Part shown: positions 38,495 through 55,085 of the stretch, piece by piece | Layout: each line of letters starts with the position of its first letter | Numbering within the stretch: the stretch's first letter is position 1 | IMG/VR virus record: IMGVR_UViG_3300049846_002100 | Coordinates: 24,942 to 88,941 of that record | Length of the DNA: 64,000 nucleotides | Reading direction: 5' to 3' (one strand) | From: a virus | Made by a program: the position numbers and the translations under genes | The notes under the pieces: generated by a model | Told to the model about the DNA's origin: nothing | The model's input: only the letters and a program-made list of their open reading frames with translations | The model's database searches: none

Positions 38495-38758
38495 TCAGCC
38501 GGCGAGCTGAAGGGCTCCTACACCGAGAAAGACGTAACCATGTCGAACACCACACCGCGACGACTCACTCGGCGTGAGGTGCCGAAGCAAACCCTCAGTC
38601 ACGAGGCTTTCCAACAGCTTTTCCGTCTCAGCGAGGGTCGCCCACCATCCAAGGTGCATAGCGACAGCACCAATGAGTAACGGCCGGGAGGCATTACGCG
38701 CGTACTCCAACACGAGGCGGCGGACTTCATGAGGGGCGGGACGGGTCGTCTTCAACAT
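38495..38758 (-). CDS. small winged-helix-like protein
   Basis: 87 aa from ATG 38758, 30 nt inside the end of the upstream gene. Sequence LVLEYARNASRPLLIGAVAM, LGWWATLAETEKLLESLVTE and LRHLTPSESSRCGVRHGYVF has the spacing of a winged helix-turn-helix: helix, turn, recognition helix and a wing ending in Tyr-Val-Phe. Could be a transcription regulator or a small anti-restriction-type protein; tentative. Confidence 0.62.
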   Translation of the reverse strand: MLKTTRPAPHEVRRLVLEYARNASRPLLIGAVAMHLGWWATLAETEKLLESLVTEGLLRHLTPSESSRCGVRHGYVFLGVGALQLAG

Positions 38759-39014
38759 AGGCTTCCTCCGACGGCAGAACGTGGTCTGTGGCCGTGGGAA
38801 GCTGCCCCACGGCCATTTCGGGAGGTACCGTCTCAAGTGAGTCGAGACGGTACTCCTTAATGATCCGTATACCTTCACCGAGGAGGCCAGTGCGGAACGA
38901 CTCGATGTCGTCGATCGTAGTGTTGAATGTGTTGCAACCCCGCTCCAACACTACCCTTATCGAGGGTAGTGTGATCTCACCAGGGGACCACACGACAAAC
39001 GAGTAGAAGCCCAT
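38727..39014 (-). CDS. unknown protein, 95 aa
   Basis: ATG 39014 preceded by GGAAGGG. The N-terminal half is hydrophobic and folded (FYSFVVWSPGEITLPSIRVV, NTFNTTIDDIESFRTGLLGE); the C-terminus is acidic and ends in DDPSRPS. No family recognised. It overlaps the next gene by 32 nt. Confidence 0.58.
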   Translation of the reverse strand: MGFYSFVVWSPGEITLPSIRVVLERGCNTFNTTIDDIESFRTGLLGEGIRIIKEYRLDSLETVPPEMAVGQLPTATDHVLPSEEAYVEDDPSRPS

Positions 39015-39043
39015 CGGTTCATAACCCTTCCGTCACAAGAGGA

Positions 39044-40213
39044 TTAGTTGAGAAGCTCGGCGACGGCGGTCACTGGGGCCTCATAGGGGATGACTACCAC
39101 GCGCGTAGGATCGAACCACAGCGTGAAGTCAACCTTACAGAGAATCTCCCAACGGTCATGAATCTCCCTTGAACCGCAGTTATATGTCGTCTCGTCGAGG
39201 ACAACCCAGGCCGCGTTGGGCAAGATCCCAATAGGGTGCCGAACACCCTCGACCACGAGGACGTTCGCGTAGGGACGGGCCTTGCGAATAACCGGCGCTG
39301 CATCCGGTGAGACGACCCAAAAGGCGGTCTCTGGTAAGGCGGTCTCGTTCAGCTCGGCGTTGGACTCGATGGGGTCGGCAACCTGCAAGGCCGCGGCGGC
39401 GAATTGAGCAGCAAGGTCCCGGACGAGCTTTGCGCCGAATACGGGCAGCGCCGCCGCCACCCGATCATGGTGGAGGTTCACCGCCTTCAGATCCGCGATC
39501 GGAGCCTTGTGGAACCCTTCCAACACACCGCACACGTCCGAGAGGCCGGCTTCTGTCGGCCTCTCGGAGACGATCGGTACATGCTTGAGGAAATCGGCCG
39601 CCGCACCCCGAACATGGTCGTGAAGGATGCGCGGCAAGGACTCGCGAATGTCGGTGACGATACCCTTCCGACCCATTCGAGTGATCGGCCGGAACATGGG
39701 ATCGTCGATGCGAACGAGGGGGTTATCGGCATAACGCTGCTGCACCTCGGCAAGCAGCTTCTTCTCTCGTTCGTTCTCATGTTCCTGCATGATCAGAAAC
39801 GCTTCCAGGTCCGGCCTGAGCCGCGGAAGCGACTGCACCATGCGGCCGTCTTCACGCGCGACCGGCGCCGGCGTCCACAAATGCTCGTCGACGACCTTGG
39901 CGATGGCGCGGCCGGTCTCGCGAGAAATGAGAAGAAGCCCGTCGCCCACTTGGAGATACTCATCCGCGAGGTAGCGAGCTACGTCACGAACCTCTTCGAT
40001 GGGCTTGTCGAACTGCTCGGAGAAGCGGCCCGCAACCTCCTCCGCAAGCTTCTCGGCCGACCAGCCCTCTTTGCGAGCCTGGACGAACACGTGCTGTGTT
40101 GCATCGCTTGTTTGCACTGCCTGACGTGCGGCAAACAGGTCGGGTGCCGGCGGGTCCGCCGACGAGAGGACCGTTACCTGAACCCGGGCTAGAGCGTTCT
40201 CTTCGGAATTCAT
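39044..40213 (-). CDS. unknown 389-aa protein linked to the AAA+ gene
   Basis: Starts at ATG 40213, directly after the TGA of the AAA+ gene, so the two are coupled. Helical sequence: SAEKLAEEVAGRFSEQF, VRDVARYLADEYLQVGDGLL, LIMQEHENEREKKLLAEVQQ, then an alpha/beta part with YANVLVVEGVRHPIGILPN and PTRVVVIPYEAPVTAVAELL. It may be the substrate, adaptor or partner of the AAA+ ATPase; no known family. Fourth gene of the DUF2997-DUF1257-AAA+ operon. Confidence 0.62.
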   Translation of the reverse strand: MNSEENALARVQVTVLSSADPPAPDLFAARQAVQTSDATQHVFVQARKEGWSAEKLAEEVAGRFSEQFDKPIEEVRDVARYLADEYLQVGDGLLLISRETGRAIAKVVDEHLWTPAPVAREDGRMVQSLPRLRPDLEAFLIMQEHENEREKKLLAEVQQRYADNPLVRIDDPMFRPITRMGRKGIVTDIRESLPRILHDHVRGAAADFLKHVPIVSERPTEAGLSDVCGVLEGFHKAPIADLKAVNLHHDRVAAALPVFGAKLVRDLAAQFAAAALQVADPIESNAELNETALPETAFWVVSPDAAPVIRKARPYANVLVVEGVRHPIGILPNAAWVVLDETTYNCGSREIHDRWEILCKVDFTLWFDPTRVVVIPYEAPVTAVAELLN

Positions 40214-40214
40214 C

Positions 40215-43160
40215 TCACACCTTCTGGACGAACTTGAACGAGCCCTCGTTGCGGTTGGGCTCAGACGCGAACCGCGCGCGGATCCCATCATCCACGCCCT
40301 CGTCGTACCCCACCCATTCAAGAACCGCGCGGACCTCGTCCACCATGGTCTTAACGATGCGGGGCTTCTTCTCCAGCGTTTGGCCGAGGATGCCCTCATC
40401 GAGGCAAGGCATTCTCTCGTTGAAAGACTCGATCAGGGCTGCGTTGAGCGCTTGCTCGATCTCGCGCCCGACCATGTTGTTGGCCTTCTCCGCGAGGTCG
40501 GCCAAATTGTAGTCCTCCGGGCTCTGATTGGCTTTACGCAAGTGGATCTTGAGGATGTCGATCCGCTCTTGCGTGGAGGGGAGGTCGAAGAAGAACCGCT
40601 CATCCATACGGTTCACGAACTCGACCGGCAGAGTAGACAACGAGTTGGCAGTCATGACGAGGCAGACCTGCGCCTTCGTCTCCTGGATCCAGGTAGAGAG
40701 GATGCCGACGACGCGAGCAACAGTGCCCGCATCGCTCTGAGAGCTGGAGTGGGTGCCTGCGAAGCTCTTCTCGGCCTCGTCAACCCAGACGATACAGTTG
40801 TGTGTGACTAGACCATTGGCGATGAAGGAATGTGTGTCATCTCCTTCACATGCAAGGTCATACACATCTTGGTTACCCACCGATTCAACGCTGGTAACCT
40901 TGACCCAACGACACTCGGCATCGAGAAGGTGTTGGAGATCCGCCCCTGCATCTCCGAAGATACGAGCGTAATTCTTCAGGTGTCTCTCACTCACCGGCAC
41001 GTGCCCGTTTTCATAGGACCAAGTCACACCGCTTGAAACATCGATGTTCTCCCACATAACACCCGAAGCTTTACGAACGTCGTGCAGAAGACGACCACAT
41101 GCGAAACCCATACCTCGATCGAAGCCGATCTCGGAGGAGGTTACGTGTGTAGCTTTGACGTTCTTCTCAATCAAGAACTCCTTGAGAATCGCTGCCAGTG
41201 CAACGGCACGGGTACCGGTGACTTCCAAATTTGGCATGTCAAACTTTGAAGGTACAACTCCCAAAGACTGGATTAGCTGGCGTGCCAGAAGTTGACGAGC
41301 GTGCCATTGCATCGAATGCTTAACAGAGAGAGAAATCTTATCGGGTTGGATACACCCGTCTGCATCGATCCACCCAGCAACGAACGCCGCCCGTACCTGA
41401 GGTGGGGCGGATAGAATGCTCTCGCGTGCCGACCGTAGAAACTCAGCCGCAAGCTGATTCACGACAACGGTCGTCCAACATGGTTTGAAGTCTGGGTCTT
41501 TGCTCAAACCATGCAGGGGTGGCAGCTCCGTTTGATCATGAAGGTAACGTTTAGGTTCGATACCGAAACTCTCTGAGACAACGCGTTCGAAAGCCCCTAA
41601 CAGTACCGTAGAGGTGTTCGTGAACCCGATTCCATCGTTTGCCCCAATAAAACCATCGCCTTCAAGGGCTCCGAGGACCCAACCCAGATCAGTAGACCAT
41701 CTTACCGGTAATCGTGGTACGACGGCATCACGGAACCCACCGCCCCCACGGCGGAATTCAACTTCCCCGTTCCGGTCGTAAACACGCATCCCCTTCGGAT
41801 GGAACCGAACACAATCCTCGTTGCCTTCGTACTTGGCCGTAGGTACTGCCATCATATCGCCGGGTGACAGCTCATCCGTACGAACCCACTCGGGCATCCC
41901 GCCACGCATCACATAGTGGAGGTGGTTTGCCGTCGCATTCACATAAAAACCGTTGGCAGCTTCTACCCGAAATGCCTCTGCCTTTCGGCGCGTGACGGTA
42001 TGTACCCGTGTGGTCTCAACTCGAAGTGTTCGCTCATTCCAGCATTGGACATGCAGCTCCTCATTGGATCCAGAGACGCTATCTTCCCAGAGAGAAGCAA
42101 TGGGTCTGCATGTGCCGTCTGCGAGAGTGACCAGTGTTTCCCCGGTCACACACGGAGCGAGGGATTCGATGATCCGGAGAGCGCGATACGCGTTGCTCTC
42201 GGATTCGCCGACACGCCCGCCTTGCAGGCGACCAAGCTCCAACTGGACTACGGGAAGACCCCACAGAGACCCAAGGCACTTCGTCGCGAGGCTCTTGCCG
42301 CAGCCCCACACGCCGACGCAGAGGACACCTCGGGGAGGTTTGAGCCCGTAAAGCTTGCCTTCAGGCGTCCAACAGGCACGAGTCTTCTTCGCCCATGTCT
42401 TGAACCTGTGCGTACCGCCCAAGTCACCCATCGTGAACTTGGTCGTGTCCACGTACTGAAGCAGGTCAGTTTTGTGGATCTGACGCCGACGGAACTCCAG
42501 GATGTGGGCTGGATCGATCCGAGGGTTATCGGGGTCTTCTTCGCGAGTGCGAATCACCGATTGAGCGATGGCGCTGTGAATCTCGAACCGCGTGAGACCC
42601 CTGAAGAGATCGGAGATCCCGGGAGGCACGGGCATGGTCATCTTGCTTGCGGCCACGCGGATGATCTCTTCGATCTCCTTCTCGCCCGGGCCGGGATCGT
42701 GGACGACGCTGATGTACCGCTGAAGGTTGTGGGGGATGAATTTTTGGGACCCCACGAAGATCAACATCTTGATCGTGTGCACGTTGTTGTGCACCTGGTG
42801 AATGAAGTTGAGCACACGACGCTGCACGTGCTCATCCCGCAACCACCGCTCGGGGTCAGTGATGATGTAGAAGTTGACCTCCTCCTTTGGATCGGCCTTG
42901 TAGGCTTCAATCAGGAGATCGTGGATGTCCTTCCCGCTGTCCTTGTGTTGTTGCGACTTCCAATCGCCAATGTGTTCGGAGAGCGGTCGGATGCCGAACG
43001 CCGCGTTGAACACCCAGATGTTCTTCGCGCTCTTCTTCAGGCTGCTCGCGAGAGAGATGAGCGCTTGGTCTTCTTCGTCGGTGACGTAGTAGATGACGCG
43101 GGTGAGGGACCGGATGAGAAATAGGAGGTCGGACTTCTCGGATGCCTTGTCGGATGCCAT
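40215..43160 (-). CDS. Ycf46-like AAA+ ATPase interrupted by an intein
   Basis: 981 aa including a 452-aa intein; 529 aa after splicing. Start taken at ATG 43160, where a GGTGTAGA motif lies 9 nt upstream (the open frame reaches 43190). N-terminal non-ATPase domain (LLFLIRSLTRVIYYVTDEED, KMLIFVGSQKFIPHNLQRYI), then Walker A GVWGCGKS at 283-290, Walker B IVWVDEAEK directly after the intein, sensor-1 region VCLVMTANSL, Arg finger region NRMDERFFFDL and sensor 2. The order matches the Ycf46/Vps4-like AAA family. Encoded with DUF1257 and DUF2997 proteins, as in bacteria that keep this gene set. Function in phages unknown. Confidence 0.85.
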   Translation of the reverse strand: MASDKASEKSDLLFLIRSLTRVIYYVTDEEDQALISLASSLKKSAKNIWVFNAAFGIRPLSEHIGDWKSQQHKDSGKDIHDLLIEAYKADPKEEVNFYIITDPERWLRDEHVQRRVLNFIHQVHNNVHTIKMLIFVGSQKFIPHNLQRYISVVHDPGPGEKEIEEIIRVAASKMTMPVPPGISDLFRGLTRFEIHSAIAQSVIRTREEDPDNPRIDPAHILEFRRRQIHKTDLLQYVDTTKFTMGDLGGTHRFKTWAKKTRACWTPEGKLYGLKPPRGVLCVGVWGCGKSLATKCLGSLWGLPVVQLELGRLQGGRVGESESNAYRALRIIESLAPCVTGETLVTLADGTCRPIASLWEDSVSGSNEELHVQCWNERTLRVETTRVHTVTRRKAEAFRVEAANGFYVNATANHLHYVMRGGMPEWVRTDELSPGDMMAVPTAKYEGNEDCVRFHPKGMRVYDRNGEVEFRRGGGGFRDAVVPRLPVRWSTDLGWVLGALEGDGFIGANDGIGFTNTSTVLLGAFERVVSESFGIEPKRYLHDQTELPPLHGLSKDPDFKPCWTTVVVNQLAAEFLRSARESILSAPPQVRAAFVAGWIDADGCIQPDKISLSVKHSMQWHARQLLARQLIQSLGVVPSKFDMPNLEVTGTRAVALAAILKEFLIEKNVKATHVTSSEIGFDRGMGFACGRLLHDVRKASGVMWENIDVSSGVTWSYENGHVPVSERHLKNYARIFGDAGADLQHLLDAECRWVKVTSVESVGNQDVYDLACEGDDTHSFIANGLVTHNCIVWVDEAEKSFAGTHSSSQSDAGTVARVVGILSTWIQETKAQVCLVMTANSLSTLPVEFVNRMDERFFFDLPSTQERIDILKIHLRKANQSPEDYNLADLAEKANNMVGREIEQALNAALIESFNERMPCLDEGILGQTLEKKPRIVKTMVDEVRAVLEWVGYDEGVDDGIRARFASEPNRNEGSFKFVQKV
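40797..42152 (-). other. intein in the Ycf46-like AAA+ ATPase
   Basis: 452 aa, residues 337-788 of the precursor. Splice junctions are Pro-|Cys (CVTGETLVTLADGT) and VTHN|Cys (extein CIVWVDEAEK). Block A and B residues (VNATANHLHYV with His) and the C-terminal HN are present. LAGLIDADG-type homing endonuclease motifs: LGALEGDGFIG and VAGWIDADGCI. It interrupts the Walker B strand of the host protein. Confidence 0.9.
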
Positions 43161-43169
43161 CGAGAGGGC

Positions 43170-43177
43170 TCTACACC
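43170..43177 (-). promoter_or_regulatory. GGTGTAGA start-proximal motif, AAA+ gene
   Basis: Exact GGTGTAGA on the minus strand, 9 nt before ATG 43160, preceded by GCCC. Determines the start codon choice. Confidence 0.55.
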
Positions 43178-43213
43178 GGGCACTACGCACTCAACGCAAT
43201 GCCGGGGAAAGAG

Positions 43214-43537
43214 TCACCCGATCTGGTAGAGAAGCTCGACTTCTCCGTTCTGATTCACCTTGCGCGATTCGATCCGGCCACCCTGCTTCCGGATCTCGTT
43301 GCTCAGAAGCGCCTCAGCGTAGTGCATCTTGAGCTGGTTCACCTTGCCACCGGCATGGTAGTCGGTGTCCCCGTCGAAAGTCCCCGTCTTCGTGTTCAGA
43401 GTGCCCCGCGTGAGCGGGCCCGTCATGAACGTGAGGACCGCGTCCTTCTCGGTGAACTTCCAACCCGCGGCTTCGCAAGCCTGCTTTGCGACGGCGAGAT
43501 CGGTGATTTCGGTTTCAGTGGTGATTCGATGAGACAT
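43214..43537 (-). CDS. DUF1257 (Ycf35-like) protein
   Basis: 107 aa from ATG 43537 (MSHRITTETEITDLAVAKQA). The pattern MSH.TT..TEI.D...A..AC...GW, followed by a beta-rich middle (TLNTKTGTFDGDTDYHAGGK) and a late helix YAEALLSNEIRKQGGRIESR, matches DUF1257/Ycf35 proteins. In many bacteria the gene lies beside DUF2997 and a Ycf46-like AAA+ ATPase, as it does here. The function of this trio is not known in detail. Confidence 0.72.
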   Translation of the reverse strand: MSHRITTETEITDLAVAKQACEAAGWKFTEKDAVLTFMTGPLTRGTLNTKTGTFDGDTDYHAGGKVNQLKMHYAEALLSNEIRKQGGRIESRKVNQNGEVELLYQIG

Positions 43538-43568
43538 GAGTTGCTCCGTGATGGCGAGGAGTGGAAGG

Positions 43569-43739
43569 TCACTTGTCGACGGTACGGGTGTTCTCACACT
43601 CAGGGCCGATCTCATCGTCCGAGAGCTGCTTGCCCAGGCGTCGCGTCACTTGGTAGACCTTGCTGCACAGGTGCTCCTGGCGGTCCACGACTTGGTTGAC
43701 CACGGTGCCGTCTTTCTTGATCGTCGCTTTGATCTTCAT
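43569..43739 (-). CDS. DUF2997-type small protein
   Basis: 56 aa (MKIKATIKKDGTVVNQVVDR then EHLCSKVYQVTRRLG). AAGGAGT lies upstream of the ATG. A first beta hairpin, a Cys-containing helix and a late Cys in EIGPECENTRTV fit the DUF2997 pattern of short proteins coded before DUF1257. It is the first gene of the AAA+ operon and has a GGTGTATA motif 23 nt upstream. Confidence 0.65.
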   Translation of the reverse strand: MKIKATIKKDGTVVNQVVDRQEHLCSKVYQVTRRLGKQLSDDEIGPECENTRTVDK

Positions 43740-43762
43740 ACGGGACTCCTTCGAGTGCTCCC

Positions 43763-43770
43763 TATACACC
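43763..43770 (-). promoter_or_regulatory. GGTGTATA motif, DUF2997 operon
   Basis: GGTGTATAG on the minus strand, 23 nt before ATG 43739, with the ribosome site AAGGAGT between them. A partner GGTATAAG in the opposite direction sits 2 nt away (43773-43780), making an imperfect palindrome. Confidence 0.5.
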
Positions 43771-43797
43771 AAGGTATAAGCCCACCCTTGACTACCC

Positions 43798-44544
43798 TCA
43801 CTTGCCGAGCTTGATTCGAGCACCCCTCTGAACGACCTTGCCACCGCCCTCAGTGGTCTGACCTTCGGGGGTCGCACGAGGAGGCGATGCCGACCAAGGG
43901 TCAGCTTTTGGCGGCGGTGCCGCTGTCGCGCCCCCCAACATTCGACCCGATTGGGAAGGGGAATTGAGTACGTTCAGCCTGGTAGGCGACGCCTTGACCG
44001 TGGACGGCGCAGGCGGTGTTCCCGGACCCGTGGGAGCCACCGGGAGAGGCTTCGGAGGGCTCGGCGGGGTGTCAACAGCCGTAGAGGTTGCAACCGTTTC
44101 TGCGGGCACGGGGAAGCCGGGGGGCACCATGGCCGCTTGAGGTAAAGGTGCTGCACCCCCACCCTCGGATCCCCCATCGTCCGAAGGTACAGGCGGACGC
44201 ATTGGAACGAAGGCGCTAGCGGACACGGCTAACGGGGCCGGTTCGGGCTCTGTGAGCGCCCTCGGGTCTACCCAACCGCTCGATATCGACGGTACCGGAC
44301 CTGTCTCGATGGTCATGAACCCCTGGCGCGAAAGAGTCGGGTACCGCGGGTCGTTGATCGACATCCGCGGTACCTGCGTGAACATTCGCTCCAGCCAGTT
44401 TGTCACTCGGTCATCGAAAGTGGACGCACCGTACAGGGCTCGCGTGCACTCACGGCTGTGGCAGCGCTTACAACACGACTCCGTGAAGATGTGCTCGGGG
44501 GCACCGTCGACATTGCATTCAGCGTATTGATCGCGCTTTTGCAT
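43798..44544 (-). CDS. unknown protein with N-terminal Cys cluster and Pro-rich tail
   Basis: 248 aa. Residues 9-33 contain CNVDGAPEHIFTESCCKRCH with three cysteines and a His, followed by RECTRALYGASTFDDRVTNW; a possible zinc knuckle. The remainder is disordered Pro/Ala/Gly sequence (PSPPKPLPVAPTGPGTPPAP). Lies between PolA and the DUF2997 operon on the same strand. Function unknown; an adaptor or nucleic-acid-binding protein is conceivable. Confidence 0.58.
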   Translation of the reverse strand: MQKRDQYAECNVDGAPEHIFTESCCKRCHSRECTRALYGASTFDDRVTNWLERMFTQVPRMSINDPRYPTLSRQGFMTIETGPVPSISSGWVDPRALTEPEPAPLAVSASAFVPMRPPVPSDDGGSEGGGAAPLPQAAMVPPGFPVPAETVATSTAVDTPPSPPKPLPVAPTGPGTPPAPSTVKASPTRLNVLNSPSQSGRMLGGATAAPPPKADPWSASPPRATPEGQTTEGGGKVVQRGARIKLGK

Positions 44545-44571
44545 GTCTCGATTTTAGCCTCTGAAAGACCC

Positions 44572-47500
44572 TCAGTCGATGAAGTAGCTGCCGTCCCCAA
44601 GCGTGTGTTCGAGGATGTACTCCTTGAACTTCTCCGGATTAATCCGAATGCCCATAGCCGGGTCAACGAGGATACTGCCGCTCGGGTCGACAAGACGAAG
44701 GACCGTGCCCCGATCAACGTCCCGAGCCTTCATACAGAGCACACTGATGATGTGCACGGTGTGTTTGCTCAGCTTGTTGATCGCGAACGTCGTGACCTTC
44801 CCGGCAGCGGGAGGGGAAGACGGGCGTGGGGCAGGGGTGTCGCTAATCTGAGGAGTGACGGGCGCCCGTGCCGTCTTTGAAGCTGCCGCCGCGGGCGTTG
44901 CTGCCTCAACCGGCACCGCTGCCGGAGCTTGGGACGAGGTGGTCGTGGGGGTAGGAACCGCCTCGTGCCCGTGCCTCTCCCAACCTGGCTTCACGTGACC
45001 CTCAAGCCACGGCGGAACCCGGTGATAGACCTTGTCGCCGACGCGGATCTCGTGGGGCTCCAGCTTCTCCCCCTCCTTGGGGGGCTGCTTCTTGCCCTCG
45101 GTCATCATGTCCCAGTTGTAGACGCCACCCCACGAGAGCCCTAGGAGAGGCTCCACGATGAGAGGCACCTGCCACCGAGGAGAAAAAGGGGGCCCCGGGA
45201 ACTTCCACGGCGAGGACATGATCTGGCAGATCAGCGGGAGAGCCTCCTCGATCCGGTCATTACGGATCTCGAACACGATTTCGTCGTGCACCGTGAGGAG
45301 CATGCGGACCGAATCATCACCGCCGTTCTTCAGCCACCCGCGCTTGTGCCACTCCTTGTGGCAGAGCACGAGCGCGATCTTCATGATGTCCGCGCCACTG
45401 TTTTTTGTGATCACGCCGTCCGCTTCGAAACGGTGGAGAGGATCCTGCACAGATAGTGTATACGTGACCTCTTCTTGGTCTTTCTCTACTTTGCCCATGA
45501 GCTTCTTGTGCCCATAGATGGGGCTCGGCAAAGTTACGCCGAGGATCGCACACAGGCGCTTGAGCGTGTAAACTGTGACTTTTCCGCCGGTCCTTAACCG
45601 CAAGTAGAGGTTGTAGCTGGACTCGTCCGGGAAGTCCGACCGCCGCCATTGTCCCGCCGCCAACAACTCGTTGACGAGAAATTGCGGAGCAAACATGTCG
45701 AGAAACTTCGGATGCCTTAGATCGGTGCGGCCCTCTACGTGGTGCTCGAACATACGACGATGAATGTCCAAACGGTAGCTTGTGCTGTCCTTTCCGGTCA
45801 CCTCGTCGTGGTACTGGTAGGGACCGCGAATGCAGGACTCCACACCCACCGAACGAAACAACAGCTTCAGGTCTTCAAGGAGAGGACGCTGGCATAGGTG
45901 GATGTTGTATGGGTTACCCTTCGCCGAGACCAACGGGGGCTTGTGGCCATCGGAGTCCATGACCCCACGGAGGAAACTCTTCCGGTTCACAAGTCTCTCG
46001 GAGAGGATGCGTCCCTTCAGACGCTTTGTGTGAGCCGTCGCCCTATCGAATCCTATCTCGGAGAGCCACCGGATTAAGTTCACACTCCATATGTCAAGGA
46101 CGACTCGCTGCGCCTCTTGGCCGCGAGGCGTGTGCTTCACAATCTGCCAACTGGGATTCAACCCAGCCTGAGTCCAGAACCGCGCGCACGCGTCAACGTC
46201 GGCTTGTTCGTGGACACCGAATATAAAACGGATACCCCCACGCGGGTCTATGCACCCGTCACCTACGTACCTCCCCATCCAGTACCAGAACTCCTCCTCC
46301 AATTGAGGACCGAACTGGAAGTAGTTGCTCGCATGCTTGTGATCATAAAAGGCTGGCAGCGGTTTCGTTTCGAATTCCAACGGCTCACACAAAGCTGTCG
46401 CGACCTGCATTCCGGGCTCTAGCTGGTCAAAGTCAACCCACTGCTGACCCTCATCCGTGACGATCATCAACTTGTGTCTTGTATCGCAAGCGATCGAGGT
46501 TCCATCAGACAACGTAACTTCACCGAGGCGGCACTGACCCATCGGGTGAGCAGTAGCCACTGCCCACTTGGATCCCGTCCAAGCCAGAAATGCCTTGTTC
46601 GAAGTAGCCAGATCCCCGATCGATAACCACCCATCCCCAGTTAGAACTTTACTTGCATATTGTAGGCACCCTTGGATTGGATAATTAGTGGAGTGCCGCT
46701 CACACGCCGCTTGGACGCCCTTTTCGGGATGGTCAATATCAGGGATGGCGATCCACCTACCAAAAGCGGTCCACACACCCTTGTGCTTGCGGACGGTCGC
46801 GTGCTGACCCTTGATCCACTTGGCGAAGGTCGGAACGGCCTTGTCGAACGCCTGCTTGCGGCGAGACGCTTCAACCTTGTCGCAACCCGTAGCGCGCATG
46901 ATCGCAGCCGGGCCGCCACCGTAGATGAGCGCGAAGTTGGCAATCTTGCCCATCTTGCGCTGCTCTTTCGTCGGCTTCTCGACGTTGAAGAATGCGCGCG
47001 CGGTGATGCTGTGGAGGTCCCCGTCGCCTTCGAGGAACTCCTTGACCCAGACCATCTCGCCAGAAACGTTCGCAGCGATTCGAAGCTCCTGCCCGGCGTA
47101 GTCACTCTTGACCAGAGTGTAGCCCTCGCGAGCGATGAACCCCTCGCGAAGAGCTGAGGTCGACGGGATACCGTGGATAGGCACCGCGGAGAAGCCTTGA
47201 TCTGCTTCGCCTTGAGGTGCCGAGAAGCGGCCGGTCGCAGCCCCGGTCTCTTTGAAGCCGAAACGCAGCTCTGAATTCTTGTCCGGGTTCGCGACGAGCT
47301 TCTCCAGGTAGGTCCCGATGACCTTGTCTTGCTCACGCCACTCGATGATCCATTTGAGGATGGCCGGCGCGTGCTCCTCTCCGATCTCCTGCACGAGCTG
47401 CTCGATCGAGGAGGCGTCTGTCTTGTACTGGCCTGACGCCTCGTTCTTCTCGGGCTTCGGCTTGATATCCAACCCGCGCTCGCCAAAGAGGAATTCGGAG

Positions 47501-48711
47501 AGGACTGTCGTCTGCCCGGGCTCGAATCCGTGGAAGCCTTTGCTCTCGGCCAGCTCGACGATCTGGGCGCGAATCTCTTCGCGCTTACGGAGGTGTACTT
47601 CGAGAAGCTGTCGGAACTTATCCCGATCGACGCGGACGCGGTTGCGCTCCATGACACGCACGGCCTGGACGCATTGCTTCTCCAGGCGATAGATGAAGCC
47701 TAGGTCCCGAGCGCGGCTTGGGTCCTTTACACGACCGACGACTTCGGGGTGATCACAAAGTAGCCGGGTGCATACTGCATCGGAGCAGGCGTACTTCACT
47801 ACGCCAGGTTCGTCGGGAGCTAGTGCGTCGAACTGAATCTTGCGCCCGTTCGGGAACAGCTCCTTGAGCTTGATCATCTCGTACGGGTTGCCGTCCGGAT
47901 CACGAAGCAGCTCGGGGGCCTTGTACTTGAGGCCAAGACCCTTGTCCTCCGACTTGAGAACGAAGCAGGCAAGCAAGCCGTCCTCGAACGAATCCGGATG
48001 CCACCAATCGATCCCCGTCACTGGGTAAAGAAACTCTTGGTCGAATTTCGCATTCCAGAAATCGATGATGACGCGGGGCTTTTGTTTGAACTCTCTGAAC
48101 GAGAGTATGTCGCTCTGTCCGTCGGCGGCGACAGGCTGCGAGGCCCAGCACAGACGCGAGATGGCAGCTTCCGCCTCGGCCACAGGGAGGTTGAGATCGG
48201 GTCCGCCATCGTTCGGGCGGTGGCGGACCGGCGCGTAGTAGCCGAACTTGGCGTTGCCGGGGGAGATACAGAAACCAACGATCTGGTGAACGGTTCGGAG
48301 CTTGCCGTTCTCATCACGCTCCGACCGGCTATCCAGACCCTGAGTCTCAAGGTCGAGAGAGCACCTGCCTGCCGCGATGCACTCGTCGATGAGTTTCTCA
48401 AGCTCATCGATGGAAGACACGAGCTTGAACGTGTGGTGCTTCATCCACGGCTTGGTGATGTCGGGCACCTCACGCTGCACCTGAATCCCGGTGCTGGCCA
48501 TGAACGTGTTCGGGTCGTCGCCACCATCGGGCGGCGGCGCCATGGTCGTCGAAGCCGCAACTTGCGGGACCGCTTGAAGGTCCGGAAGGTCGTCGGTCTC
48601 CGCCGGGGGCAGAGAAGGCGTTGCCGGGGCGGGTGCTCCCTCCGGCTTCTGCGCGGCTTCGGTTGCGTCGAGAAGGGCATCGAAGTCGAAGTCGTCGTTC
48701 GTGTCGCTCAC
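44572..48711 (-). CDS. DNA polymerase I-type (family A) with intein
   Basis: 1379 aa with a 423-aa intein. Start set at GTG 48711 (GGGAGG upstream), overlapping the previous stop; the open frame reaches 48819. Ala/Pro-rich N-terminal 100 residues; 3'-5' exonuclease with SLDLETQGLD and FWNAKFDQEF and YACSDAVCT; polymerase motif A SDYAGQELRIAANVSGE, motif B KMGKIANFALIYGGG, and motif C TVHDEIVFEI. Replicative enzyme of the phage. About 150 residues follow motif C: a linker of Pro/Ala and a small domain (INKLSKHTVHIISVLCMKAR) not found in PolA. A GGTGTATA motif lies 24 nt before the start. Confidence 0.92.
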   Translation of the reverse strand: MSDTNDDFDFDALLDATEAAQKPEGAPAPATPSLPPAETDDLPDLQAVPQVAASTTMAPPPDGGDDPNTFMASTGIQVQREVPDITKPWMKHHTFKLVSSIDELEKLIDECIAAGRCSLDLETQGLDSRSERDENGKLRTVHQIVGFCISPGNAKFGYYAPVRHRPNDGGPDLNLPVAEAEAAISRLCWASQPVAADGQSDILSFREFKQKPRVIIDFWNAKFDQEFLYPVTGIDWWHPDSFEDGLLACFVLKSEDKGLGLKYKAPELLRDPDGNPYEMIKLKELFPNGRKIQFDALAPDEPGVVKYACSDAVCTRLLCDHPEVVGRVKDPSRARDLGFIYRLEKQCVQAVRVMERNRVRVDRDKFRQLLEVHLRKREEIRAQIVELAESKGFHGFEPGQTTVLSEFLFGERGLDIKPKPEKNEASGQYKTDASSIEQLVQEIGEEHAPAILKWIIEWREQDKVIGTYLEKLVANPDKNSELRFGFKETGAATGRFSAPQGEADQGFSAVPIHGIPSTSALREGFIAREGYTLVKSDYAGQELRIAANVSGEMVWVKEFLEGDGDLHSITARAFFNVEKPTKEQRKMGKIANFALIYGGGPAAIMRATGCDKVEASRRKQAFDKAVPTFAKWIKGQHATVRKHKGVWTAFGRWIAIPDIDHPEKGVQAACERHSTNYPIQGCLQYASKVLTGDGWLSIGDLATSNKAFLAWTGSKWAVATAHPMGQCRLGEVTLSDGTSIACDTRHKLMIVTDEGQQWVDFDQLEPGMQVATALCEPLEFETKPLPAFYDHKHASNYFQFGPQLEEEFWYWMGRYVGDGCIDPRGGIRFIFGVHEQADVDACARFWTQAGLNPSWQIVKHTPRGQEAQRVVLDIWSVNLIRWLSEIGFDRATAHTKRLKGRILSERLVNRKSFLRGVMDSDGHKPPLVSAKGNPYNIHLCQRPLLEDLKLLFRSVGVESCIRGPYQYHDEVTGKDSTSYRLDIHRRMFEHHVEGRTDLRHPKFLDMFAPQFLVNELLAAGQWRRSDFPDESSYNLYLRLRTGGKVTVYTLKRLCAILGVTLPSPIYGHKKLMGKVEKDQEEVTYTLSVQDPLHRFEADGVITKNSGADIMKIALVLCHKEWHKRGWLKNGGDDSVRMLLTVHDEIVFEIRNDRIEEALPLICQIMSSPWKFPGPPFSPRWQVPLIVEPLLGLSWGGVYNWDMMTEGKKQPPKEGEKLEPHEIRVGDKVYHRVPPWLEGHVKPGWERHGHEAVPTPTTTSSQAPAAVPVEAATPAAAASKTARAPVTPQISDTPAPRPSSPPAAGKVTTFAINKLSKHTVHIISVLCMKARDVDRGTVLRLVDPSGSILVDPAMGIRINPEKFKEYILEHTLGDGSYFID
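45400..46668 (-). other. intein in PolA (motif C region)
   Basis: 423 aa, residues 682-1104. Inserted in NYPIQG|SGADIMKIA, the conserved PIQG(T/S)AAD motif. First residue Cys (CLQYASKVLTGDGW). The C-terminal junction is GVITKN|Ser: the usual penultimate His is Lys. LAGLIDADG-type motifs MGRYVGDGCID and RGVMDSDGHK are present. Splicing without the penultimate His occurs in some inteins but is often slower. Confidence 0.88.
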
Positions 48712-49136
48712 GGATCCTCCCGTACGAGGCAGACGTATACACCTTCGCGCCAAAGAGCGATGGCTTCTGAAACTAACCTGCGAGCTTCGCCTTCCAGCCC
48801 GTCCGGCTCGTAGCACCACGGCATCTTCTTCGCCGTCGGCTTGCAGGCAACCTTGTCAAACGAAGGGCAGTCCTTCCTAATCGCGCAGTCGCGAGAGATA
48901 ACAGGCAACTTCCTCAGGCAGCCCTCGGGTGGAGGGCCCAGCGCATCGACCAAGGGTTTGGTCCAGCCGTGTAGCGCGTGGTCCATCATGGTCTTGGACA
49001 CGCGAGTAGCGGCCTCAAGCGCCGGGACATCCTGCGCGGGCCGCCACGTTGCCTCCCACGTGCCCCCGACATCGTAGATCAGGAATAACTCGATTCGACC
49101 TAGCTCGGCCGTATCCAGCTTCAAACGTCTGGGCAT
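48708..49136 (-). CDS. unknown protein, 142 aa
   Basis: ATG 49136 (MPRRLKLDTAELGRIELF); the frame is open upstream but that part overlaps the primase gene. Contains CLRKLPVISRDCAIRKDCPS followed by VACKPTAKKMPWCYEPDGLE, a cysteine series that may bind zinc or an iron-sulfur cluster. Last codons overlap the PolA start (GTGA). A replication accessory role is suggested by its place between primase-type protein and polymerase. Confidence 0.6.
   Translation of the reverse strand: MPRRLKLDTAELGRIELFLIYDVGGTWEATWRPAQDVPALEAATRVSKTMMDHALHGWTKPLVDALGPPPEGCLRKLPVISRDCAIRKDCPSFDKVACKPTAKKMPWCYEPDGLEGEARRLVSEAIALWREGVYVCLVREDP
48736..48743 (-). promoter_or_regulatory. GGTGTATA motif before PolA
   Basis: GGTGTATACG on the minus strand, 24 nt before GTG 48711, with GGGAGG in between; lies inside the last codons of the preceding gene. 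Confidence 0.45.
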
Positions 49137-49784: not shown

Positions 49785-52700
49785 TCAAACGTTCATCATC
49801 ATGCGGAGCGCTTCTTGATGGTCTTCCACCGCCATCCCACGTCCGCCCGCGGAGTTGATGGCGTTCATGTTGGAGATACGCCGAGACGTGAAGTTCACCG
49901 AGGCCACGAACGGCTCGAACAAGGGGTTGTCTCGGTTTTTCAGGTTGCAGAAAACCGTCGTCCCGTTCCGCCGGTGGTCATCGTTGAGATAGGTTGTCGT
50001 GATGATGTCCGCCGACTTCTCACAATTGTGAGAGAGAAGTCCGGCTGTCGCGTATTCGTGGTCACCCGACACTTCGAGGTCATACACTCGCGCCGTACCC
50101 CAATCCGCAAGAACCATAACACGTTGTGGTTTGGTTGTTTCATGAAGATAACGAAGCGTATCCAGATCGTTACTTTTGGACCTACGCAGTGTTTGCAACA
50201 TGGCAGCTACAGCCCCATCACTGACGAGGCTGTCTTTTCGTGTTGCTAGCTTGGCCAAAGCACTCAACACTTTTCGAGGAAATACATAAGTACCTTTGTA
50301 CTCGTTGTAGATAGCCGAGAACAACGATCCCACGGGCCAGTTAGTTCGATCACCAGCCTTTTCGGACGTATGTGCGGCTGCAATGGATGTCATCAACTTC
50401 GCTTGCTTCGCCTTTTCGGTAAAACCGATGAGGGCCGCGAAGCGCTTGCGGCTAGATCGCGATCGAACACGCAGGATCCATCGATCATACTCACGGCCGT
50501 TCAATGATGTAGTACCATAGGTGAGTGTTGTGTCGATACCGAGATCAGTCATTAGTAGCTGTGTTTGCCGTAGCGTTGATTCGTGAACGCCCTTGAGGCC
50601 CAACGCAAGAATTCCTTGGTTGTTAATCGAACCATCCGTGTCCCAAAGACCTCTTAGAAATGCTAGAACACAGTCACGAGGTGCTTCTAGGATGCACGGT
50701 GGTAAACCAGGCTGCCGGTTGACACCTAGTTGTTCAAACCAACGATGCAGAGCCTTGCTGCTTTTGCGCATATCGAAGCTACCCGATCGAGAAGGTGACT
50801 TCGACAAGGTGATGTCCTGTGAAAAACAGGTTACGAATGAAGATAGAAGACGGCCCATGACGGCCAACTCCTTACGATTCCCAGTGAATCCGATCGTGTC
50901 AGGCTCAAATGTGCCGTCACCAACGTGGGCCCCGAACAGGTAGGCAAGATCCGTCGTGAGATGTCCCGGCGAGGTTAGCGCAACACCCTTCATACCGGTA
51001 GGCTTCTCCCATTTGTGGAAGTCAAGTGTCGGCAACACAGGCGGCTTGTTCGGGAAGGGGCGCGTTCCGAAATCGCATAGCAAATAGTCTGAAAGGGTCA
51101 GGTCTTGAACGTGTTTCCAACTGACAACACCATCGTTGAGGATTCGAACGCGGTGGTTCCCAGTTACTTGGACGCGTACGCCCCGATCCGTCCAGAGATC
51201 GAAAACATGGCGAATACCATTATCGAACCGCGTGAGGACATCCTTCCATCCCGTGCGACTCCACACATGATCTCCAGGACCAACAGATTCAATTGTACGC
51301 AGCCCAGACGATGTCTTGACCAAGGTACCTTCGGCCAAGCACTCGTTCGCGTATGTGAGGGCGTTCATCTTGTAGCGACCCTCGTTCTTGTTCGCCTCTT
51401 CCTTACCCTGGCGGTTGATTTGAAAGAGCATGAGAACAGGAATACCCTCACCTTGGTTGAAGTGGAGGGCGAGCTTCTTCGCATCTCGGATGATCGAGTT
51501 CAGCTCGACGACGTAGTCCTTCGACCGCTTCTTCTTGCGGGCCTCGATGAGCTGACCGTGGTCGAGAACGATGAGGCCGATCTCCATCCGCTTGTGGAGA
51601 AGCTCGGCTTCTAAGCGAATGTCGTCGATCGTGATGTCACGATCGGGGGACCACACCTGGAACGCTCCGTAGTCGGGGTTCCTCTGGAAGTCCTTGATCA
51701 CGTCCTGAAGGAACACCTCCTCCTTCGGGTCGAGCTGCCCGTCACGGAACTTGCGGTAGTCGAGGCCAGCAGCATGTCCACCGTTCTCGTCGAGCCGCCA
51801 TCGGGAGTTTGCCGAATGCATCGTGTACGCGACGCGCCGGAGTTGCCGGTAAGGCATCTCGAAGCTGCCGTACATCACGTTCGAGCGGTACCTGGTAACG
51901 AGGTTGTAGCACCAGTTCATGGCGAACATGGTATTGTGCGTCACAATATCGTTCGCGACAAATGTGTGATGTCCAGGAACGGACAGATCGTAGGTCATCT
52001 CCTTCCCACGGAGCATGATACCCTCGACTTGTTCCCAGGAGAGGTCACCGTCGAGGACCTTTCGCACTTCGGAGTTCGGTAGAAACAAAGCTATGGTATC
52101 GGCTTGAGCTGAGGTTCTACACTTCGTCGTGTTCGCGTAGCGCCAGCGCTCCACACCATTCGCTCCCTGCCACCGGATCTTCATCCCGGAAGGAATGAAG
52201 TCAGTAGGGAACACGCGGTTATCGGTATAAGGTAGACGTGAGGCGAGCGTTGCGAACAAATCCTCCTTACCGATGACGTGGATTTTCTCGACGAACCTGC
52301 GCTTCGACGGATTTGTCACGACCCGAACGGTGTGGAATGTATAAGGCTTACCCTTGTACGTAGTGTCCACCCTCGTCACTGACGACTGAATGCCGAGACG
52401 CAAGAGGAGGGATTGGATATCCTTGCACAGGTCGCGGCTGGTAGATGTATAGGTGATGTCGTTTCTCTTGCAGAACGAGTCCCGTTCAACACGCTCGTGA
52501 TCTCCCGTGTGACAGGAACCGTCAGTTGACCAGAGAGCCCCCAGAAAAAGAGCGATCTGCTCGTCAGGAAGCCCAAAGAAGTCCCACGGCACGTGTTTGT
52601 CAGCCGCTAGACTTCCGAACAGCCCCGTATCTTCGAGCAGGACGCGTAACAGCGAGGTCATCTCGCTGTTACCGTTCCCGAAGCTACGGCTCACCCAAAC

Positions 52701-53873
52701 AAAGGGTGCCCGGTCTGATGGGAATACCTCACGGAACGTAGGTGTTTCGTAATCTGCCGCTCCTTCGACGAGTCCGAGGTCTCGAAGGCACTCCTTGAAG
52801 TCCTCGCGGATCAGATCGTTTGAAGCTGTGAACGTAAGATCGAGCCCGATCGACCCGTCCCCCAGCAGGTACCCAAGGACCTTGACCTCGGCGTCCGTAT
52901 AAAAACGTTCAGGGACACTTGCCTGCATGATCGCAGGAACGGCAACCCAATCCCCAGGGCGCAATTCGTCGAGCTGTCTCCAGCCCGCGGGCGTGAAGAA
53001 CTTGTGGTTCCCGGTAGCTCCAATGCTGCGCCCCGAGGTGAGAGTCAGATCGTAGACCTCTCGCACGCCGTTCTCGACGAGGTGTGACGTTTCCGCCCGG
53101 ACAAGCCGATGCGTCTCCCCCTCGCGATCGAGAGCTGTGACGATTGGAAGCTCTCCGCTCTCGTACAGCTCGTGGATCGTCCTTCGCCTGTTCGTCCGGT
53201 GATCGAAGATCGTGGCATCGCCGCTTAAGCACTTCAGCTCACCTGGGTAAGCGGCGTGGACCCAAAGCTCGCCCTTCTTGGCACCGTGGCAGACCTTGTC
53301 GATCTCCTGTAGGCCGGTGAACTTACCCCAGACCTTGTCCTTGTTGAGCTTGGCTTCTTCGTACTCGTTCCAGACGAGCTGCCCGTCATCACGGATGTCG
53401 CCGAACGTCTGAGCGTTGTAGTCCGTAAGGATCAGATCATTCGCTTTGGCAGCGAAGTGTTGGAGGCCATCGCGGATCCCTTGCTTCCGCTCCCCCTCGA
53501 TCTCCAACCCCTTGGTGATGATCTCCTGAGACTCTTTGAGGAGCGCCACCGCTCGGATGCGGTGCTGCTCGTCGAGCGCATTTTCCAAGAGGTGTTTGAA
53601 GTTGGAGCGGTAGAAGACAGGCACCGACTCCAGGTCTTTGATGCGCTCAACGACCTCGGTGTCCTTGAGGCGCTCGAAGTAATCTGCGATCGTCGCCGCC
53701 GCGGGCACTTCCAAGCGCTGTTGGAAGTACGTGACAACGAACTGAAAGAGCCGTTGGTCATCCCCCCGGTTCCACTCATACTTCGACGAGATGAGCCGCT
53801 GAAGGTTGAGGATCAGGTTCTCCTGCGAGACCGACGACTCGAAGTCGATGATATTGCGAAGAAGCTGCTTCAT
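49785..53873 (-). CDS. replicative DnaB-type helicase with two inteins
   Basis: 1362 aa; about 490 aa after removal of two inteins (433 and 439 aa). N-terminal domain (LQRLISSKYEWNRGDDQRLF) with a helical hairpin; RecA-type core with Walker A (HAAYPGELK|TMFAM), IGLIVLDHGQLIEARKKK (Walker B and following), VPVLMLFQINRQGKEEANKN (motif H3-like), and ANE|CEKSADIITTTYLND. All conserved helicase motifs flank the inteins. Moves along DNA and unwinds the fork. First ATG overlaps the stop of the presumed loader gene. Confidence 0.92.
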   Translation of the reverse strand: MKQLLRNIIDFESSVSQENLILNLQRLISSKYEWNRGDDQRLFQFVVTYFQQRLEVPAAATIADYFERLKDTEVVERIKDLESVPVFYRSNFKHLLENALDEQHRIRAVALLKESQEIITKGLEIEGERKQGIRDGLQHFAAKANDLILTDYNAQTFGDIRDDGQLVWNEYEEAKLNKDKVWGKFTGLQEIDKVCHGAKKGELWVHAAYPGELKCLSGDATIFDHRTNRRRTIHELYESGELPIVTALDREGETHRLVRAETSHLVENGVREVYDLTLTSGRSIGATGNHKFFTPAGWRQLDELRPGDWVAVPAIMQASVPERFYTDAEVKVLGYLLGDGSIGLDLTFTASNDLIREDFKECLRDLGLVEGAADYETPTFREVFPSDRAPFVWVSRSFGNGNSEMTSLLRVLLEDTGLFGSLAADKHVPWDFFGLPDEQIALFLGALWSTDGSCHTGDHERVERDSFCKRNDITYTSTSRDLCKDIQSLLLRLGIQSSVTRVDTTYKGKPYTFHTVRVVTNPSKRRFVEKIHVIGKEDLFATLASRLPYTDNRVFPTDFIPSGMKIRWQGANGVERWRYANTTKCRTSAQADTIALFLPNSEVRKVLDGDLSWEQVEGIMLRGKEMTYDLSVPGHHTFVANDIVTHNTMFAMNWCYNLVTRYRSNVMYGSFEMPYRQLRRVAYTMHSANSRWRLDENGGHAAGLDYRKFRDGQLDPKEEVFLQDVIKDFQRNPDYGAFQVWSPDRDITIDDIRLEAELLHKRMEIGLIVLDHGQLIEARKKKRSKDYVVELNSIIRDAKKLALHFNQGEGIPVLMLFQINRQGKEEANKNEGRYKMNALTYANECLAEGTLVKTSSGLRTIESVGPGDHVWSRTGWKDVLTRFDNGIRHVFDLWTDRGVRVQVTGNHRVRILNDGVVSWKHVQDLTLSDYLLCDFGTRPFPNKPPVLPTLDFHKWEKPTGMKGVALTSPGHLTTDLAYLFGAHVGDGTFEPDTIGFTGNRKELAVMGRLLSSFVTCFSQDITLSKSPSRSGSFDMRKSSKALHRWFEQLGVNRQPGLPPCILEAPRDCVLAFLRGLWDTDGSINNQGILALGLKGVHESTLRQTQLLMTDLGIDTTLTYGTTSLNGREYDRWILRVRSRSSRKRFAALIGFTEKAKQAKLMTSIAAAHTSEKAGDRTNWPVGSLFSAIYNEYKGTYVFPRKVLSALAKLATRKDSLVSDGAVAAMLQTLRRSKSNDLDTLRYLHETTKPQRVMVLADWGTARVYDLEVSGDHEYATAGLLSHNCEKSADIITTTYLNDDHRRNGTTVFCNLKNRDNPLFEPFVASVNFTSRRISNMNAINSAGGRGMAVEDHQEALRMMMNV
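50025..51341 (-). other. intein 2 in DnaB
   Basis: 439 aa, residues 845-1283. Junctions ANE|Cys and LLSHN|Cys. Typical start CLAEGTLVKTSSGLRTIES, block B NHRVRI, LAGLIDADG-type motifs FGAHVGDGTF and LRGLWDTDGSI, C-terminus GDHEYATAGLLSHN. Located in motif 4-type sequence near the DnaB-b insertion site known from other organisms. Confidence 0.92.
51933..53231 (-). other. intein 1 in DnaB (Walker A)
   Basis: 433 aa, residues 215-647. Junctions GELK|Cys and VTHN|Thr, exactly between Lys and Thr of the Walker A motif. Start CLSGDATIFDHRTNRR, homing motifs LGYLLGDGSIG and LGALWSTDGSC, C-terminus PGHHTFVANDIVTHN. Matches the DnaB-a type insertion site. Confidence 0.92.
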
Positions 53874-54748
53874 CCGCCCCTCCCCGGCCGCCCCTTCTTA
53901 AAGGGTTTCTTTCGGTCGGACCCGAGTGACCCGAGATCAAGTGAAGAGCTTGAGAAGTCCAGAGTTTCACGCGCCCTCGAAGGAGGCACGGGAGGTCCCT
54001 TCTTTTGTCCTGGCATCTCGACTTCCGGCTCGACGACCTCAGGTGCTGCTGAGTCGTCGACCTCCATTGATGCGACAGGGGTGGGCTTGCCATACGCCTG
54101 CGGCCCCACTGCTTCGAGCCGCGATTCGTCGAGATCCGATAGCTTCACCACCTCGAATCGACCGGACCCCAGGATGTAATCGTAGGTGTCCTCGCTGTAC
54201 GCGAAGTGGCCCGGAACATACGGGGCTTGGGGGGACTCAACGATCCAGGTTGGCTTGAGCGCGACCTCGCGAAGCATGAGCGATTCTTTGAGGACGCCTG
54301 GCATCGCGATGTTCTTGTGCCCGAGATGCCCGAGGCGGATGATGATCAGCTCCAAGTCCTCGCCCACGAGGTCGTTCAAGGAGTTGTAGGTGACAAGGTC
54401 GTCACGCTTGCTTCGGGCACGAGAGAGGTAACTCTCGGCACCAACGTAGATCGTCTTGAGCCGCTCATCGGTGAGGACCCTGAACCGGAACATCGGCCCT
54501 TTGCAACCTAGAGCCCACTTCAAGTGGGGCAGAAGGTCGGTCCAGTACGCCTTGATGAAGAGGTTCTTGGTCGTAAAGTCCTCCCCGTTAGGGTCGAAAA
54601 AAGGGCTCCGGTCGAGAAGCGTGGCGCCCGCAATCTCAGGGCCCAAATGAGCCTTGAGAGCCCGTGCATACGCGCAGACGCATTGCTCGACGTTCATGTC
54701 GTCAATGGGGATCTTCCCCGTGTCACCACACTTCTCGCAGACCGGCAT
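53870..54748 (-). CDS. zinc-finger protein, probable helicase loader or accessory factor
   Basis: 292 aa. N-terminal zinc finger CEKCGDTGKIPIDDM with a further CVCAY, like the zinc domain of DnaC/loader-type phage proteins. The middle contains WTDLLPHLKWALGCKGPMFR, DLELIIIRLGHLGHKNIAMP and YDYILGSGRFEVVKLSDL; no intact Walker A was found, so it is not a full DnaC. The position immediately upstream of dnaB (ATGA overlap) makes a loader or scaffold role likely. Confidence 0.62.
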   Translation of the reverse strand: MPVCEKCGDTGKIPIDDMNVEQCVCAYARALKAHLGPEIAGATLLDRSPFFDPNGEDFTTKNLFIKAYWTDLLPHLKWALGCKGPMFRFRVLTDERLKTIYVGAESYLSRARSKRDDLVTYNSLNDLVGEDLELIIIRLGHLGHKNIAMPGVLKESLMLREVALKPTWIVESPQAPYVPGHFAYSEDTYDYILGSGRFEVVKLSDLDESRLEAVGPQAYGKPTPVASMEVDDSAAPEVVEPEVEMPGQKKGPPVPPSRARETLDFSSSSLDLGSLGSDRKKPFKKGRPGRGG

Positions 54749-54773: not shown

Positions 54774-55085
54774 TCAGGAACGAGTATGGGATAGCGTGTT
54801 TTCAGCCTCGTCGCCGTCTGCGTCGACCCACTCGATCGCAGCCACCGCCAGGGCGGCCACGATCACCATCTCGTGCCGGAATCGCCTCGCCGTCCAAGGC
54901 CAGTGCACTGCCTGTCCCACGTGCTTCGTGATCAGAGCGATCCAGTCGTTCGGCCCGTTGTGTTTGTCGTGTTCTGGGTTGTCCCAAATGCGGTTCTGAC
55001 GCCGCCTCTCTTCGCGGATCTCGGCGAAGATGCCGTCTTGATTGCGCGACCCGCTCCGCTGGTTTCGCTCGTTGTGGGCGGTCAT
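54774..55085 (-). CDS. MazG-like small protein
   Basis: 103 aa. Pattern of the phage MazG-like/NTP-pyrophosphatase-type proteins: FAEIREERRRQNRIW, WIALITKHVGQAVHW, MVIVAALAVAAIEWVDADGD. The metal-binding EExxE/ExxD residues of active enzymes are only partly present (the first EExxE-type position reads KHVGQ), so enzymatic activity is uncertain. Its last codons overlap the start of the next gene upstream/downstream in the replication operon (ATGA at 55082). Confidence 0.6.
   Translation of the reverse strand: MTAHNERNQRSGSRNQDGIFAEIREERRRQNRIWDNPEHDKHNGPNDWIALITKHVGQAVHWPWTARRFRHEMVIVAALAVAAIEWVDADGDEAENTLSHTRS

Follow-up and report, generated by a model that had tools for sequence, protein, structure and literature searches.

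Gene set at the locus

We analysed a stretch of 64 kilobases (kb) of viral DNA, here called the window, which makes up most of the 88.9-kb virus record IMGVR_UViG_3300049846_002100 (positions 24,942 to 88,941). The subject is a minus-strand gene set coding for a DUF2997-like protein, a DUF1257 (Ycf35)-like protein, an AAA+ ATPase interrupted by an intein, and a protein of 389 amino acids (aa), designated x389. All four genes were re-found with the positions and sizes that an earlier note on this DNA had assigned to them. The set belongs to a block that begins with the DNA polymerase gene polA, as listed below.

44572..48819, minus strand: family A DNA polymerase (polA), which likewise carries an intein; the conserved block begins with this gene
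43798..44544, minus strand: 248-aa linker protein, Cys/Pro-rich, kept in 15/15 relatives
43765..43770, minus strand: GGTGTA motif upstream of the DUF2997-like gene
43569..43739, minus strand: DUF2997-like protein, 56 aa (profile comparison, conserved Cys, GPEC tail)
43214..43537, minus strand: DUF1257 (Ycf35)-like protein, 107 aa (Pfam below cut-off, profile comparison)
43172..43177, minus strand: GGTGTA motif upstream of the AAA+ gene
40215..43160, minus strand: AAA+ ATPase of the DUF1257-linked family, 981-aa precursor (Pfam, NCBIfam, PHROG)
42153..43160, minus strand: N-extein, with the conserved N-domain and Walker A (GVWGCGKS)
40797..42152, minus strand: intein, 452 residues, with a LAGLIDADG domain, at the Walker B site (between AP and C)
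40215..40796, minus strand: C-extein, with Walker B (CIVWVDE), sensor 1, arginine-finger region (NRMDER) and lid
39044..40213, minus strand: x389, 389 aa, predicted HK97-fold domain at about residues 177-380 (AlphaFold, Foldseek, VIA-align)

In the window, the stop codon of the AAA+ gene and the start of x389 are one base apart, and primase-like, DnaB-like and helicase genes sit upstream of polA.

Identity of the encoded proteins

The AAA+ protein matches phrog_8638 (E-value 2.8e-84), and the PDB sequences closest to its AAA+ domain are those of Cdc48/p97 (E ~1e-33). Walker A, Walker B and arginine-finger residues are conserved. When viral proteins were compared with the bacterial, plasmid and isolate-phage AAA+ proteins linked to DUF1257, the N-domain was matched with a probability of 98.75 over 233 columns and the AAA+ domain with a probability of 100 (Smooch and Summit left out of this domain comparison). 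We take this DUF1257-linked family to be the one known as Ycf46-like. A degenerate second AAA+ domain in the N-terminal part was considered and rejected, the viral self-comparison giving a probability of 1, and the bacterial and mixed ones 31 and 56, confined to the lid region. Close relatives of the viral AAA+ proteins were not found in bacterial genomes with the two search patterns used.

In the AAA+ frame, NCBIfam recognises an N-terminal intein region from residue 337 and a C-terminal one ending at residue 789, and intein splicing and LAGLIDADG domains are detected by Pfam. The intein spans residues 337 to 788 of the precursor, so that the spliced ATPase has about 529 aa (981 minus 452), in agreement with the earlier note. 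Intein-free relatives are continuous across the splice junction (for example L007, AIAPCIVWMDEAEKS), while record L021 carries an insertion at the same site. The intein had also been taken as a sign that the gene is old; this is unsupported, and the depth of the AAA+ clade described below is the better sign. Signals of inteins or homing endonucleases are present in the DNA polymerase and in another helicase of the window as well (44572-48819, 49785-53873, 55082-59314), and the DnaB-like frame, long at 1362 aa, matches intein-bearing families.

A scan of the set's proteins with a defence library gave weak IetA matches only, and no evidence for a role in defence was found. The PADLOC matches to the AAA+ domain (E 3.1e-7 in the window, 1.4e-10 in L002) could be read as pointing to an element like IetAS/SgiAT, serving in counter-defence or as a toxin-antitoxin pair, in which an AAA+ protein is joined by a subtilisin-like protease, and the SgiAT antitoxin has been termed SpoVK/Ycf46-like (PMC10954446). 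However, the IetA matches do not extend beyond the AAA+ domain, no protease was recognised among the scanned proteins of the set, and the linked genes differ. We consider such an element very improbable.

The two small proteins fall short of the Pfam cut-offs, and for this reason the names DUF1257-like and DUF2997-like are used. The 107-aa protein reaches 17.3 bits with Pfam DUF1257 (PF06868; E 0.0055), below the cut-off of 22.2, and the 56-aa protein has no Pfam match to DUF2997 (PF11211), matching phrog_23133 (E 9e-4). Profiles built from distinct viral rows (13 for DUF2997) were compared by hhalign with profiles of isolate-phage and plasmid proteins. For DUF1257 this gave a probability of 97.6 (E 3.8e-12, 105 columns), with homology across the whole domain, and for DUF2997 a probability of 77.8 (E 1.9e-5, 46 columns). 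Neither score was attained in any of 100 column shuffles; the reversed and the cross-family controls scored low. Furthermore, a single Cys of DUF2997 is conserved in 13/13 distinct viral rows and 47/47 other rows, and the 56-aa protein ends in the PE[YFWC]-type tail of the family, here GPEC. Proteins of isolate phages do exceed the Pfam cut-offs, both for DUF1257 (L338C 36.8, PA_L9 24.6) and for DUF2997, with its cut-off of 24.1 (JP1 38.9, PA_L9 33.2, L338C 24.5). On these comparisons the 107-aa protein is firmly assigned as DUF1257-like, and the 56-aa protein, with moderate confidence, as DUF2997-like. The identification of a DUF2997-DUF1257-AAA+ set made in the earlier note is thus upheld by profile-profile comparison, more firmly for DUF1257, although Pfam itself gives a sub-threshold match to one family and none to the other.

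An AlphaFold model of the DUF1257-like protein (predicted local distance difference test, pLDDT, 85) revealed no interpretable structural relative in Foldseek (best E 0.12) or VIA (best Z 6.8). The only match of the DUF1257 profile among PDB sequences, a collagen adhesin (E 4e-5), is regarded as due to chance.

The protein encoded behind the ATPase, x389, has no noteworthy Pfam, PHROG or PDB sequence match, and no relative was found by tblastn among 50,697 phage records. Its AlphaFold model, obtained from a 12-row alignment, has a pLDDT of 85.5 and a predicted template modelling score (pTM) of 0.62. In a Foldseek search of PDB, each of the 50 rows listed is an encapsulin, an HK97-type capsid protein or a cage made from such proteins, with a best E of 6.9e-6, and capsid proteins form most of the named rows in BFVD. 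VIA aligned the model with an encapsulin (Z 9.8, root-mean-square deviation 5.3 over 193 residues) and with the HK97 prohead (Z 9.3, deviation 4.1 over 179 residues). Residues ~177-380 of x389 are thus predicted to carry the HK97 fold. The presence and coupling of the 389-aa gene agree with the earlier note; rather than a nondescript fourth subunit, its product has a modelled capsid-type fold. No similarity was found of x389 to plasmid neighbour proteins of 294, 393 and 394 aa or to the gene behind AAA+ in isolate phages.

x389 is present as a single copy in 16/16 records. A separate 293-aa protein matches phrog_2522, "major head protein" (E 6e-52), which is found at full length in 8/16 records, 25-117 kb from x389. 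The other eight, including the window's record, have no full-length phrog_2522 match; these records are 84-148 kb long, perhaps fragments, and partial matches occur in one, G013. By this gene content, x389 is distinct from the major capsid protein in the relatives, and presumably, by extension from them, in the window itself. Frames of 316 aa with two partial matches to the major head protein were also noted (G011:C1:175781-176365 and G014:C1:57484-58065), perhaps representing a further capsid paralogue.

Conservation in viruses and occurrence in bacteria

Searching viral contigs with an intein-free AAA+ query yielded 15 viral records, 12 of them distinct because three pairs are near-duplicate (near-duplicate record pairs are L010/L017, L011/L015, L012/L013 and L135/L137). 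The order polA, 248-aa gene, DUF2997, DUF1257, AAA+ and x389 is kept in all 15, seven of which exceed 250 kb, the largest being 372 kb. A search based on x389 gave 17 loci, eight of them in further records, among which are one near-duplicate pair and one record of 513 kb. AAA+, DUF1257 and the 248-aa gene are present in all eight further records, and DUF2997 and polA in seven each. In the record of 513 kb (L134, 512,571 bases), DUF2997 was not detected in the block and the AAA+ probably carries an insertion, since its frame is 981 aa long. From the stop codon of AAA+ to a potential start of x389, the distance does not exceed 10 nucleotides (nt) in 11 of the 12 relatives examined, the exception being L009 with 246 nt.

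The motif GGTGTA occurs 36 times in the window, compared with 12.8 expected, and none of 100 shuffles attained this number. The two copies over the set that the earlier note pointed out are thus part of an enrichment above chance. Of the 15 relatives, 13 have GGTGTA no more than 90 nt ahead of DUF2997 and 14 have it there ahead of AAA+; one has it ahead of DUF1257, and none ahead of x389 or the Cys/Pro-rich gene. As it precedes DUF2997 and AAA+ and hardly the genes between and after them, two expression units, DUF2997-DUF1257 and AAA+-x389, are suggested, and GGTGTA is likely a phage promoter element. No excess of sigma-70 promoters and terminators was detected within 38700-44700. GGTGTA is also found just upstream of other starts in the window, e.g. 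near 54748 and 59314.

The ratio of nonsynonymous to synonymous substitution rates (dN/dS), calculated for one close pair (L010/L020), stays under 0.35 for each of the five genes. This value supports purifying constraint on the set.

In cultured phages, all three core genes (AAA+, DUF1257 and DUF2997) are present in six of the nine AAA+ loci fetched, namely in Rhizobium phages L338C and RHph_I4, Agrobacterium phage JP1, Aeromonas phage HJ05, Rhodobacter phage RcDurkin and Pseudomonas phage PA_L9. Together with the related virus records, they show that the set is phage-borne. Its description as an undescribed system agrees with the literature searched, where full-text searches turned up no account of the DUF1257/DUF2997/Ycf46 set in phages, most subscription papers and bioRxiv preprints absent from PubMed Central being outside this search; the GenBank annotation of RHph_I4 nevertheless names both DUF1257 and DUF2997. 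Among papers listed on phage proteins that resemble HK97 capsids or encapsulins in fold but have another role, no title or abstract dealt with the x389 case. The Streptococcus satellite phage Javan368 (L026, 4458-6035) has an AAA+ protein of the DUF1257-linked family, with no DUF1257 or DUF2997 in the fetched stretch.

A tree of AAA+ proteins (83 rows) joins those of large phages into one clade with support of 100 and a long stem, while the isolate clade stands apart with support of 98. Left out of the tree were Summit, 22 of the 80 bacterial rows, near-duplicate viral rows, and the window and L021 due to their inteins. With its long branches, the tree neither shows nor excludes a single origin of the phage copies. 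Judging from tblastn and gene content, x389 is a marker of the large-phage lineage, while in isolate phages another gene accompanies this core.

The position of the block invites the explanation that the ATPase remodels the replisome, acting on the phage polymerase, helicase or primase. In the window it comes after genes for a helicase, a DnaB-like helicase, primase and polA, and polA adjoins it in 15/15 relatives; in RHph_I4, DUF2997 is followed, four and five genes further on, by those for a DnaB-like helicase and DNA polymerase I. We find a replisome role quite unlikely, as the AAA+ protein is Cdc48-like and not a clamp loader, several unknown genes separate the core from the helicase in isolate phages, and the hidden Markov models used detected no replication genes beside the bacterial core, though most of the neighbours there are unidentified.

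That the set recurs outside phages, as the earlier note held, is confirmed by bacterial and plasmid loci with the same three families. A search with plasmid AAA+ proteins, which had been chosen partly for their DUF neighbours, gave at least 583 bacterial loci, of which we inspected the best 80; the fractions are therefore not population frequencies, and some contigs end early. Near AAA+, DUF1257 was found in 62 loci, DUF2997 in 41, both in 38, and a radical-SAM/4Fe-4S protein in 34, whereas AAA+ is alone in 13. A helix-hairpin-helix (HHH_3) gene often adjoins the radical-SAM gene. An operon of AAA+, DUF1257-like, DUF2997, HHH_3 and radical-SAM Fer4_12 genes was observed in Actinomycetota, Bacillota, Gastranaerophilales and others (L028, L031, L034-L069). 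An IncA conjugative plasmid (L033, 3827-5987) carries AAA+, a 130-aa DUF1257-like gene and DUF2997, and AAA+ matches like that of this plasmid occur in many enterobacterial plasmids. In the 22 loci with AAA+ and DUF1257 only, mostly or all cyanobacterial, a crude motif scan found no adjacent ferredoxin or DUF2997.

These neighbours could indicate a redox or iron-sulfur maintenance system of bacterial origin that preserves the activity of a redox enzyme during infection, x389 being a mere neighbour. The radical-SAM and helix-hairpin-helix partners of the bacterial core fit this explanation better than the remodelling of x389 discussed below, and the DUF2997 Cys conserved throughout is consistent with it. 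It also accords with what is described for photosynthetic lineages: a DUF2997-ycf35-fed7 cluster in cyanobacteria (PMC4284462), losses of ycf46 and ycf35 from red algal plastids that are discussed together with iron supply (PMC5940233), and the response of the slr0374 (Ycf46) operon to iron and oxidative stress (PMC7496141). Inactivation of Ycf46 in Synechocystis is said to reduce carbonic anhydrase activity (PMC7496141). Among the 22 phage records searched, however, Fer4_12 is found in none and a radical-SAM gene in one, and the phage core accompanies DNA replication genes and, in large phages, x389. A redox role of the phage set thus appears unlikely, if worth keeping in view.

Possible function and comparison with known systems

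A functional proposal can start from what was observed: which genes are present and how their families are related, their fixed linkage, the constraint on them, and the separate major capsid gene in relatives. The core of AAA+, DUF1257 and DUF2997 is constant, while its companion varies: x389 in large phages, an unrelated gene in isolates, and redox and helix-hairpin-helix genes in bacteria. This pattern would be accounted for most simply by a Cdc48-like remodeller whose small adaptors stay the same while its client changes. We tentatively favour, somewhat short of an even chance, an ATP-driven protein-remodelling module that has x389, a second HK97-fold protein, as its partner or client in large phages. 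In such a module, the Cdc48/p97-like ATPase with its family N-domain, presumably as a hexamer, would work with the DUF1257 and DUF2997 proteins as two small adaptors. Translated directly behind the ATPase, x389 would be the dedicated partner or client of the large-phage lineage, and the ATPase may load, mature or take apart x389 assemblies, which could belong to the head, as a minor or vertex part, or form an internal shell.

Several points weigh against this proposal. No x389 relative is recognisable in the isolate phages and bacteria that have the core, so x389 cannot be its general client. The HK97 assignment comes from one alignment and one model (pTM 0.62), with TM-scores to PDB chains of ~0.2-0.44, and the sequence of x389 matches no capsid in PDB. 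That AAA+ and x389 are expressed together is suggested by gene spacing only, and the place of the block in a replication operon would equally suit a role at the replisome. The module as a whole is a proposal drawn from sequence and structural models.

A more specific version of the remodelling module involves the 248-aa protein, which has an N-terminal Cys cluster (CN..C.RC..PEC-like), a Pro-rich middle and a conserved C-terminal tail (VVxPGAxIKLGG-like), also in relatives L007-L021. By analogy, this layout is reminiscent of encapsulin cargo proteins. In this version x389 would form a second intracellular HK97-fold assembly, an encapsulin-like compartment tied to the replication operon. The 248-aa protein would serve as its adaptor or cargo, and AAA+, DUF1257 and DUF2997 would open, load or dismantle it. 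We hold this to be decidedly improbable.

No mechanism has been assigned to the DUF1257/Ycf35 and DUF2997 families and their AAA+ partner, which occur in plastids, plasmids and phages and across many bacterial phyla. Large phages lock this core to a protein with a predicted viral-shell fold, other than the major capsid protein, offering a concrete candidate client to test in a model much simpler to dissect than a photosynthetic host. The arrangement also prompts the question why a second capsid-fold protein is retained in a replication operon.

Compared with the bacterial and plasmid AAA+-DUF1257-DUF2997 neighbourhood, the three core families are common to both (all three in 38/80 loci), whereas the phage lineage lacks the radical-SAM and helix-hairpin-helix partners, has x389 and the 248-aa gene, and follows the order DUF2997-DUF1257-AAA+. 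The sets of isolate phages likewise share the three core genes, placed upstream of replication genes where annotated, but in the order AAA+, a gene of 200-240 aa unlike x389, further genes, DUF1257 and DUF2997; their AAA+ proteins form a separate clade, and tblastn found no x389 relative in them. In jumbo phages, a MoxR-vWA pair and other AAA+ chaperones have been reported, and phage-coded AAA+ proteins are proposed to aid virion assembly (PMC7824862). They belong to other AAA+ clades, and the terms DUF1257 and SpoVK are absent from that paper. With encapsulins and HK97-type capsid proteins, residues 177-380 of x389 share the fold on the predicted model; x389, known here from genes and a model, differs in having no sequence match to them and an extra N-terminal part of 176 aa. 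Finally, the AAA+ domain is common to the phage ATPase and to Cdc48/p97-type ATPases, while the phage protein has one recognised AAA+ domain and an N-domain specific to its family.

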